From the NCBI RefSeq assembly GCF_038022665.1, contig NZ_CP150629.1:186001-250000 (forward strand): a stretch of DNA of 64,000 bases, given 5' to 3'. Shown in pieces: positions 2,357 to 21,879 of this stretch. Source of the stretch: Methanolobus sp. WCC4. GTDB taxonomy: Archaea > Halobacteriota > Methanosarcinia > Methanosarcinales > Methanosarcinaceae. Below the pieces are notes generated by a model, which saw nothing but the letters and a program-made list of their open reading frames with translations, did no database searches and was not told where the DNA came from. Position 1 is the first letter of the stretch, and each line of letters opens with the position of its first letter. The position numbers were made by a program, and so were the translations under genes.

Positions 2357-2440
2357 GAAAGTATATTGTAAGAATTTACTTTAAAATCTTACGAATTGTG
2401 GATATGTAGAAATCCTACTTGTCAACGAGTTTTGAATCAT

Positions 2441-2524
2441 AACCGCAGATGAACACAGATGACGCAGATAGTGGTTACTTGTATCTGCGTTTATCTGCGT
2501 TTATCTGCGTTCATCTGTGGTTCA
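2441..2524. repeat. Inverted array of a 10-bp CAGATGAACG-type repeat
   Basis: The left arm (about 2441-2470) carries three GCAGAT/ACAGAT units in one orientation. The right arm (2482-2524) carries four ATCTGCGTTT-like units at 10-bp spacing in the opposite orientation, so the whole can fold into a long imperfect hairpin. The same element recurs at 31221-31355. It lies between the TPR gene and the HAD gene. No coding sequence is seen. Confidence 0.8.
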
Positions 2525-2530
2525 TATTAT

Positions 2531-3217
2531 CTAGAGGATTTCTGAAGAGCCTGAATTATCGCAAAGATGTCCTTTATCAAGGATATTGTAAAGATACTCC
2601 TGCAACGATGCATGGTCCTCCAGTATGATATCAGCCTCGGATAACTTATCCGGGGAAACATATGTCGGTACGCCAACACAGTAAAGTCCTGCCCTTTTTG
2701 CAGACTCGACACCCATTGGAGCATTCTCTACCACGATACAGTTCTCCTTTCCTATATCCAGCATCTCAACAGCCCTGAGATAGGGCTCAGGATATGGTTT
2801 TCCATAATGCACATCCTCACCTGATACGATCACATCAAAGATACCGGGGAAGAACTGATCCATGAAGGACTCAACCGTAACCCTCTCGGAACCTGTGACA
2901 ACAGCCAGTCTGAAATCCTTCTTCAGGACAGAAAGACAGGCCACCATTCCTTCGAATGGTTTAACATCGGCTATACTGGTAAATATCTCGATCTTCCTTT
3001 CCAGTATACTGTCATACATATCCGGGTCGAGCTCCCTTCCTGCTTTCTCAAAGAGCCACTGAAGACCCACACGATGATTAGCACCTTCCACCTCATAGAT
3101 GTCAGCAGGAGTGACATTGACACCCACCTCTCTGGAAACCTGGATCCAGGCCTGTGCATGATATGTCATGGAATCAACAAGAACACCATCCATATCAAAA
3201 ATAAGGGAACTTAGCAT
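2531..3217 (-). CDS. HAD-superfamily phosphatase / beta-phosphoglucomutase-like
   Basis: A 228-aa protein with all HAD motifs. The nucleophile motif DMDGVLVDS has aspartates at 8 and 10; motif II is VVTGSER near residue 110; the lysine is in HYGKPYPEP; motif IV is VVENAPMGVESAKRAG. A helical cap follows the first motif, as in the beta-phosphoglucomutase/phosphoglycolate phosphatase subfamily. It probably dephosphorylates or isomerises a small phosphorylated sugar or glycolate; the sequence does not fix the substrate. It is followed by the inverted repeat at 2441-2524 and has no obvious operon partner. Confidence 0.8.
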   Translation of the reverse strand: MLSSLIFDMDGVLVDSMTYHAQAWIQVSREVGVNVTPADIYEVEGANHRVGLQWLFEKAGRELDPDMYDSILERKIEIFTSIADVKPFEGMVACLSVLKKDFRLAVVTGSERVTVESFMDQFFPGIFDVIVSGEDVHYGKPYPEPYLRAVEMLDIGKENCIVVENAPMGVESAKRAGLYCVGVPTYVSPDKLSEADIILEDHASLQEYLYNILDKGHLCDNSGSSEIL

Positions 3218-16118: not shown

Positions 16119-16190
16119 TGCGTCTGCCGGGATTCGAACCCGAGTTCAGAGCTTGGGAAGCTCCGGTCATAGCCACTAAACCACAGCCGC
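16119..16190 (-). tRNA. tRNA-Gly (anticodon CCC)
   Basis: On the minus strand the gene begins GCGGCTGTGGTTTAGTGGC. The anticodon stem GGAGC/GCTCT closes a TTCCCAA loop (anticodon CCC), and GGTTCGAATCC gives the T loop. The acceptor stem pairs except at position 4 (G opposite A at 16123), an unusual mismatch. CCA is not encoded (A discriminator followed by TGG). Confidence 0.9.
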
Positions 16191-19659: not shown

Positions 19660-20250
19660 ATGGCACCCGGAACCTTCAAAGAAGAGATATTGCGCAAGGC
19701 TCTTCACCTCGCATCCGTTGCGATCGTTCTGGTGTACTACTTCTTTGGAAAAACGATTGTCCTGTACTTCATGACATCCTACCTTGCCATTGTCCTGATC
19801 ATCGAGCACCTGCGCCTTGACCGGGGATACAGGTTGCCTTTCGTACATCACCTCCTGCGCAGGGAGGAAGAGACCACACTTGCAGGACACATCTACTTCA
19901 CACTCGGGGCTATCGTTGCAGTCTCCGTTTTCAGCGAGAACGTCGCCTACGCAGCACTTCTCATGGCAACCTTCGGAGATATGAGTGCGGCACTTATCGG
20001 CAAGAAGTTTGGCAGGAGAAGGATATTCAGGAATGGAAAATCCCTTGAAGGATGCATTGCAGAGTTCATCGTTGACATTGTTATCGGCTATGCTCTGCTC
20101 TCAAACCCTGTGATCGCATTTGTGATGGCACTTGTTGCCACCGCTGTGGAGACCGGCTTTGAGAAGATAGATGATAATCTTGCGATTCCCGTGTTCTCGG
20201 GTTTTGCCGGGGAAATGCTGGTGATGCTTACGCAATATGCGTATCCGTGA
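19660..20250 (+). CDS. Polyprenol/dolichol kinase-like membrane protein
   Basis: A 196-aa protein with about five to six membrane spans and the cytidylyl-kinase signature of the SEC59/phytol kinase family: EEILRKALHLASVAIVL at the N-terminus and FGDMSAALIGKKFGRRRIFR, then GKSLEG, near 105-130. Such enzymes phosphorylate polyprenols or diacylglycerol using CTP, here probably for the lipid carrier of glycosylation or for recycling isoprenoid alcohols. The ATG at 19660 is chosen because a TTTATATC TATA box (19631-19638) would start transcription at about 19659; a TTG at 19651 is the alternative. Confidence 0.75.
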   Translation: MAPGTFKEEILRKALHLASVAIVLVYYFFGKTIVLYFMTSYLAIVLIIEHLRLDRGYRLPFVHHLLRREEETTLAGHIYFTLGAIVAVSVFSENVAYAALLMATFGDMSAALIGKKFGRRRIFRNGKSLEGCIAEFIVDIVIGYALLSNPVIAFVMALVATAVETGFEKIDDNLAIPVFSGFAGEMLVMLTQYAYP

Positions 20251-20324
20251 AAATGGCTCGACAGAGATTATTTTAATACAATTTTGAACTCAGCATTTTC
20301 AATCACTGTATTATCAGTCGCCTT

Positions 20325-20545
20325 TAGGATGGAGTGAAGGAAAGTGCCGCCTGCGGCGGATGGTCGTGTTGTTCTTTGTTTTTTAATGATCTTTGCAGGG
20401 CTATCAGAACACAAAGGAACGATGGACAATAACTTTTGCTAACCGGAAATCATTAATTACTTCAACCATCCCGGAGGGTCCGGCGAAGCCGGCACGGTCC
20501 GAAAAACTGAATAAAAAAGATATTGTCCTTCACTCTTTTTACGTA
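20325..20545. other. Structured GC-rich non-coding element
   Basis: A 420-bp gap (20251-20670) without a gene. Inside it GAGTGAAGGA (20332-20341) and TCCTTCACTC (20526-20535) form a perfect 10-bp inverted pair. Between them are two GC-rich hairpins, CCGCC-TGC-GGCGG (20347-20359) and CCGGC-GAA-GCCGG (20480-20492), and an internal imperfect pair GTTCTTTGT / ACAAAGGAAC. The element is much richer in G+C than the surrounding gap. It could be a structured RNA or a small non-autonomous transposable element; no terminal target duplication was identified. Confidence 0.5.
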
Positions 20546-20670
20546 TACCGTTAAATAAAAACCGTGATGCATCCCATAAAATTGATAGCCGCGATTATTA
20601 GAAGTACTTCAGAATCGCATGAAACATTCAAAAGAGAAAAGCTACATACAAAAAATGAAGAGTAACACTA

Positions 20671-21879
20671 TCAAATGCCACTCTTAACAATACTTGCAAT
20701 TGCATCTTCCATGATCTGCAGGCCTTCCTCAAGTTCTTCTTTCCTGATATTGAGTGCAGGGAATATCCGAATCCCAAAGCCCTGAGTCTGGGTTACAAGC
20801 AGGCCTCTTGCCTGACATTCATCTTTGACCCTGGTGGCAATTTCCTCGTTCCGAAGATCGACCATTATCAGAAGACCTTTTCCCCGTACTTCGGTAACTG
20901 CATCACCATATGACGCCTTCCATTGTTCCATCCGTTCAAGGGCCAAAGCACCCATTTCTTTCACATTGTCGGAAATGTTGTTGTCCAGAAGGTACTTTAT
21001 CACCGCATAGGAAACAGCACAACCAAGCGGATTTCCACAATACGTGCCTCCATGGTCGCCAATTTCCAGCTTCCCTGCCACCTCTTCGGACATGGCAAAG
21101 GCACCAAAGGGAAAACCACCTGCAATTCCCTTTGCCATGGTCAGGAAATCCACTTTGACGCCACATTCACCGGTGACAAAGGCAGGGCCTGTCCTGAAGA
21201 ATCCCGTCTGGATCTCATCTACGATGAGAAGACTGCCATTCTTCTTGCAAAGGTCGCTGACACCTTTCAGATAATCGGGCGAAGGGATCCTGATCCCTCC
21301 CTCACCCTGTATGGGTTCGAGTATAACTGCCGCCACACTCTCATCCAGAGCCTCTTGCATTGCATCAAGGTCATTATACGGAACAAAACGATAATTGGGC
21401 ATCAAAGGGTCATACCTGTCCCTGTTCTTGGCCTGACCTGTGGCAGATGCCGTGCTGATGGTACGCCCATGGAAACTCTGTAAAGTGGAGACGACCTCCG
21501 GCCTCCCTGTGACCTTTCGGGCAAGTTTGATAGCAGCATCGTTCGTTTCAGCTCCGCTGTTCGTGAAGAACACCCTTGTAAGATCGGAAGGAAGGATCTC
21601 TGACATCAGGGAAAGCAGACGAGCGCGTGCTGGCGAGTATGTAAGTCCCGAATTGGGATTCTGGATGATCTTACTTCCCTGATCAGCAAGAGCATCAGTG
21701 ATGACCGGATTGGCATGCCCGATACATGTAACACCCCAGCCTGCTGTGAAGTCAAGGTATCTTCTACCTTCTTCGTCCCATACATAAACTCCCTCACCCT
21801 TTTCGATGGAGATACTCTGTTTCACGAAGAATGGTGCAAAATACTTGTCCTCTGTTTCAAATGTGTCCTTGCTAGACAT
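20671..21879 (-). CDS. Class III PLP aminotransferase (acetylornithine/GABA aminotransferase-like)
   Basis: A 402-aa protein with the full class III signature: FFTNSGAETNDAAIKLAR near 104-121, SFHGRTISTASATG near 139, ILEPIQGEGGI near 187, IVDEIQTGFFRTG near 218 and the PLP lysine in TMAKGIAGGFPFGA near 248. It transfers an amino group from an omega- or alpha-amino acid to 2-oxoglutarate. It resembles acetylornithine aminotransferase (ArgD) and 4-aminobutyrate aminotransferase about equally, and no arginine gene is nearby, so the substrate is open. It stands alone, between the structured element and mscS. Confidence 0.8.
   Translation of the reverse strand: MSSKDTFETEDKYFAPFFVKQSISIEKGEGVYVWDEEGRRYLDFTAGWGVTCIGHANPVITDALADQGSKIIQNPNSGLTYSPARARLLSLMSEILPSDLTRVFFTNSGAETNDAAIKLARKVTGRPEVVSTLQSFHGRTISTASATGQAKNRDRYDPLMPNYRFVPYNDLDAMQEALDESVAAVILEPIQGEGGIRIPSPDYLKGVSDLCKKNGSLLIVDEIQTGFFRTGPAFVTGECGVKVDFLTMAKGIAGGFPFGAFAMSEEVAGKLEIGDHGGTYCGNPLGCAVSYAVIKYLLDNNISDNVKEMGALALERMEQWKASYGDAVTEVRGKGLLIMVDLRNEEIATRVKDECQARGLLVTQTQGFGIRIFPALNIRKEELEEGLQIMEDAIASIVKSGI

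Follow-up and report, generated by a model that had tools for sequence, protein, structure and literature searches.

Results

The window analyzed here is the whole 64,000-nt stretch of Methanolobus sp. WCC4 DNA (contig NZ_CP150629.1, positions 186,001 to 250,000, forward strand). Two convergent genes in it are separated by a 420-bp gap at 20251-20670. A sequence-only reading had placed a structured element at 20325-20545 of this gap, either a multi-branched RNA of about 200 nt or a non-autonomous transposable element (MITE). The features used below are listed in window coordinates.

2400..2551, + strand: short sibling MITE bounded by the same terminal inverted repeats (TIRs), each with 2 mismatches, and having CAGATGAACACAGATGACGCAGAT-type sequence inside
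ending at 20250: left neighbor gene, convergent with the right neighbor
20255..20651 (about 397 bp), + strand: very probably the whole MITE, long form, block order A-x-B; from the flank alignment of 31 copies, left end by TIR search, right end by eye from the consensus and uncertain by some bases
20255..20272, + strand: left TIR, 12 of 18 bases matching GGCTCTGTAGARATCCTG
20332..20341, + strand: left half of the 10-bp pair of the sequence-only reading, internal and unconserved among copies
20344..20359, + strand: hairpin block A, GTGCCGCCTGCGGCGG, mean column identity 0.95 (29 copies)
20466..20495, + strand: block B with its hairpin, CCATCCCGGAGGGTCCGGCGAAGCCGGCAC, mean column identity 0.94, and 0.975 in the last 15 bases
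20526..20535, + strand: right half of the 10-bp pair, internal and unconserved among copies
20625..20651, + strand: decayed right end; the consensus of the other long copies here is CATTCAAATGAGAATCTCTACAGAGCC
ending at 20671: right neighbor, a class III aminotransferase gene on the strand opposite to the left neighbor

The gap contains the 10-bp inverted pair that had been described, GAGTGAAGGA (20332-20341) being the exact reverse complement of TCCTTCACTC (20526-20535), as well as the two GC hairpins inside it and the internal imperfect pair GTTCTTTGT (20371) / ACAAAGGAAC (20411). At 44.3% G+C, segment 20325-20545 exceeds the remaining parts of the gap (32.4% and 32.8%); since the window mean is 46.0%, it is GC-richer than its flanks, as had been said, but not GC-rich. 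The 10-bp pair alone is weak evidence, because 10.8% of 500 dinucleotide-shuffled versions of the gap also contain a perfect pair of this length. Over 29 aligned copies its two helices hold in 70.7% and 59.6% of the alignment cells; as a control, sliding the entire structure proposed in the sequence-only reading by 1-3 columns kept 45-60%. Being poorly kept among copies, the pair is largely peculiar to the window copy and is not the element terminus. The actual termini are about 70 bp to its left and 105-115 bp to its right, and the span 20325-20545 was thus too narrow, the repeated unit running from about 20255 to about 20651 and filling the gap.

A search for further genomic copies, which had been suggested as a check, gave 42 blastn matches to the 221-bp stretch in the 2.85-Mb genome of this Methanolobus. 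About 31 copies are near full length or alignable (the window copy and 30 others); they are old and diverged, with 72-82% identity. Matches were found in 21 of 40 genomes including this one, namely 20 of the 25 genus genomes and 1 of the 15 from elsewhere, the latter at E 4.5e-4; copy numbers per relative genome are lower bounds, the best 20 candidates per genome having been scored. In a collection of named genomes, the exact block A pattern occurred in 9 stretches, 8 of them from Methanolobus, and we take the ninth, on a Streptomyces contig, for a chance match. Extent was determined by aligning the flanks of the 31 copies: similarity ends with GGCTCTGTAGARATCCTG at the left edge and with the reverse complement of that sequence at the right edge. 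Two length forms exist, a short one of about 320-330 bp and a long one of about 370-405 bp, which differ by about 85 bp near the right end. Column statistics come from a 29-row alignment that leaves out L049 (truncated) and L058 (aberrant). The window copy contains no ORF of at least 60 aa, and the family is multicopy, under about 600 bp and without a transposase gene, as MITEs are. The automatic TIR search of the window copy gave no good right TIR, and no target duplication is recognizable there. A comparison of window positions 1-25000 with a plasmid collection gave no match.

The family has the TIR GGCTCTGTAGARATCC, which is much eroded in the window copy. With up to 2 mismatches this pattern has 63 sites in the genome, versus 1 for the reversed control; with up to 1 mismatch it was found in 25 of 25 genus genomes (including this one) and in 1 of the 15 from outside the genus, and the control in 0 of 40. 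TIR pairs delimit 10 elements of 132-194 bp and three IS of about 1001 bp (L064, L065 and L066), whose TIRs are GGCTCTGTAGAAATCC; L064 has an 8-bp duplication. The ORF of L065 encodes 328 aa and matches the IS5 family model NF033579 with 220.7 bits (cut-off 140) as well as DDE_Tnp_1. The transposase frame is uninterrupted in L065 and L064 and has one stop in L066, and relatives of the transposase occur in 26 of 27 genus genomes. Perfect 8-bp target duplications flank 8 of these 13 TIR-bounded elements (the 3 IS and 10 short MITEs). Duplications of this length, together with a subgroup-specific transposase, mark the ISH1 subgroup of the IS5 family, to which the IS may belong. In the family of the window copy, both TIRs match at 12 or more of 18 positions in 15 of 31 copies, and the 8-bp flanks of those 15 agree at 4.2 of 8 positions versus 2.4 for mismatched pairs; target duplications are here only partly preserved. 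This family and the IS have the TIRs alone in common, and their interiors differ. The interior of the short siblings (2400-2551 and L067-L076) consists of repeated CAGATAAACACAGAT / ATCTGTGTTCATCTGTGGTT words; words of this kind are found in many unrelated bacterial genomes.

The element is absent from the window site in both relatives that keep the two neighboring genes (L105 and L106). Their gap is not a clean empty site: it contains an ORF, judged hydrolase-like by eye and missing here. The MITE occupies the place of that ORF, which is perhaps linked to a deletion. Five insertions are common to this genome and M. profundi, four of the A-x-B type and one with reversed block order (B-y-A, L061/L164), so some copies predate the split between the two. 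With genes taken as long open frames picked by a script, the setting of the 31 copies is convergent in 12, divergent in 3, tandem in 16 (8 sense, 8 antisense) and intragenic in none. The convergent excess over divergent (12:3, p 0.035) is as expected if insertions are tolerated away from promoters. At three intergenic places the two genomes carry copies in opposite orientation (L029/L158, L049/L151 and L052/L163); the left junction of L049/L151 looks identical, and L163 is only a remnant of about 47 bp. In-place inversion was considered and judged less likely, since the best-match comparison pairs neither L049 with L151 nor L029 with L158; these loci are therefore probably separate insertions at a favored spot.

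The two GC hairpins are the best-conserved part of the element between copies: over the 29 copies, the left TIR has a mean identity of 0.73 and the other parts about 0.70-0.80. When the hairpins were omitted from the sequence models, which had been trained on these very copies, 36 and 32 places were still recovered, nearly all the known copies, with exceptions that include L078 and L060; the conservation of the hairpins is thus not only an effect of the search. In other species, elements of about 310-360 bp carry the blocks reversed (B-y-A), and a recognizable TIR is present at either end of several of them; L084-L091, in another Methanolobus species, show this order inside the same TIRs. In this genome also, the B piece precedes the A piece at some places (L061, L062). 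Block A is gone in L060 and block B in L078. In the latter (641659-641751 onward), block A is altered on both sides of the stem (CCACC...GGTGG), one of very few compensatory-looking changes.

Drift after insertion was counted over the four A-x-B insertions common to this genome and M. profundi, the fifth common locus (L061/L164, B-y-A) being left out. Identity was 129/144 in the hairpins, 1002/1152 in the rest of the element and 3728/4269 in the flanks; with p 0.43 over the four insertions, the hairpins and the rest look to have drifted equally. Without L058/L165, in which the B hairpin is ruined, the hairpins reach 101/108 versus 702/817 for the rest (p 0.03), an exclusion chosen after seeing the data. 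From this p value, the hairpins may drift slightly more slowly after insertion. We conclude that they are conserved mainly among source copies.

Discussion

Our results argue strongly that window positions 20255-20651 are an old, decayed copy of a MITE. The guess of a MITE in the sequence-only reading was thus well founded as to the kind of element, given the many copies, the TIRs common to an autonomous IS, the 8-bp duplications in the family, the absence from orthologous sites and the lack of ORFs; the terminal repeats that it had named are internal and unconserved. Judging by the TIRs, a transposase of known type probably moves the element. The IS5-family transposase would recognize the common ends of about 16 bp and move the MITE in trans, and cut-and-paste insertion would duplicate 8 bp of the AT-rich DNA between genes. 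Copies would survive where they are least harmful, either downstream of genes or where two genes converge. The GC hairpins would be part of the body of the source element and may matter for its mobility, with no need for a host function. The window copy itself can probably no longer move, because its right TIR is nearly gone; as this TIR and the target duplication are unrecognizable, its past mobility is inferred from the family.

How the hairpins came to be so well conserved allows for other explanations. The A and B blocks might be a portable cis-acting structure that persists by making its carrier more mobile, and the A-x-B and B-y-A orders might come from transposition intermediates, circular or in tandem, that were opened at differing points; we regard this idea as rather unlikely. 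It is also conceivable, albeit quite improbable, that the hairpins were adopted by the host after insertion, for example as protein-binding or mRNA-end structures, and have been kept by selection. The identity of block A (0.95) and of the end of block B (0.975) relative to the TIR and the remaining parts fits such adoption, as do the recovery of nearly the same copies by the hairpin-free models and the slower drift of the hairpins when L058/L165 is excluded. However, that exclusion was post hoc, L060 and L078 persist with one block lost, and once all four common insertions are counted the adoption of the hairpins by the host is unsupported.

A functional multi-branched RNA gene of about 200 nt, repeated in the genome, is very improbable. 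The fold, one of the checks proposed, does beat shuffles, and 90-93% of cells show pairing in the hairpins and in a GGATGGT/ACCATCC helix; the hairpin blocks are, moreover, the part best conserved between copies. However, either strand folds better than its shuffles (z -2.35 and -2.80), which is what inverted-repeat DNA gives. Covariation, another check proposed, spoke against an RNA: the RNAalifold covariation term was +0.15, and for the centroid fold of the window copy no measure of pairing or covariation rose above column shuffles. When the whole window was compared with Rfam at the gathering score, only the tRNA at 16119 passed, and at E<=1 over 20200-20720 the best below-threshold match had E 0.37. 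The copies lie in both orientations, with no sense bias among tandem gene pairs, the order of the hairpin blocks is permuted in relatives, and the hairpins drift like the rest in common insertions. The RNA was thus rejected on Rfam, folding, RNAalifold and the pair counts of both the centroid fold and the pairs of the sequence-only reading. A REP/REPIN-type repeat dependent on a Y1 (RAYT) transposase would also be intergenic and multicopy, with a pair of GC hairpins in inverted orientation, but is extremely improbable and was set aside on the absence of a Y1 transposase, Y1_Tnp having 0 matches in this genome and the same search being positive in 5 of 14 control genomes; moreover, the element has TIRs and its family target duplications, which Y1 elements are not known to make.

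The MITE reading has practical consequences. Being one of a few dozen intergenic copies of a MITE, the element counts as an unremarkable passenger of the genome and not as a new RNA. A possible new RNA is replaced by a repeat family with a likely transposase partner, which should aid the annotation of Methanolobus genomes, where the family should not be annotated as ncRNA. The family also offers datable insertions for species comparison, and its two permuted hairpin orders within the same ends are a small puzzle on how MITEs gain their interiors.

We did not find this Methanolobus MITE family described in the open-licence literature. Among the systems closest to it, two are in its own genome: the IS5-family IS of about 1001 bp has the same TIRs and differs by its transposase, its lack of hairpin blocks and its other interior, and the short siblings of 132-194 bp have the same TIRs and 8-bp duplications, with a CAGATAAACACAGAT-type interior and no A or B hairpin. 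Archaeal MITEs have been described in Haloquadratum walsbyi (PMC3119063) and, as SM1-SM4, in Sulfolobus (PMC10969869); the Haloquadratum account includes MITEs whose interior is unrelated to the transposon with the same terminal repeats (PMC3119063). In so far as these accounts describe them, the Methanolobus elements are alike in being short, non-coding, intergenic and multicopy, with TIRs common to a resident transposon and an unrelated interior. In contrast to the Haloquadratum and Sulfolobus MITEs as described there, they have a sequence that is unrelated as far as tested, an internal pair of GC hairpins, two permuted architectures and old copies. The family is apparently new, and a MITE with an IS5-family partner is an already known kind of element.
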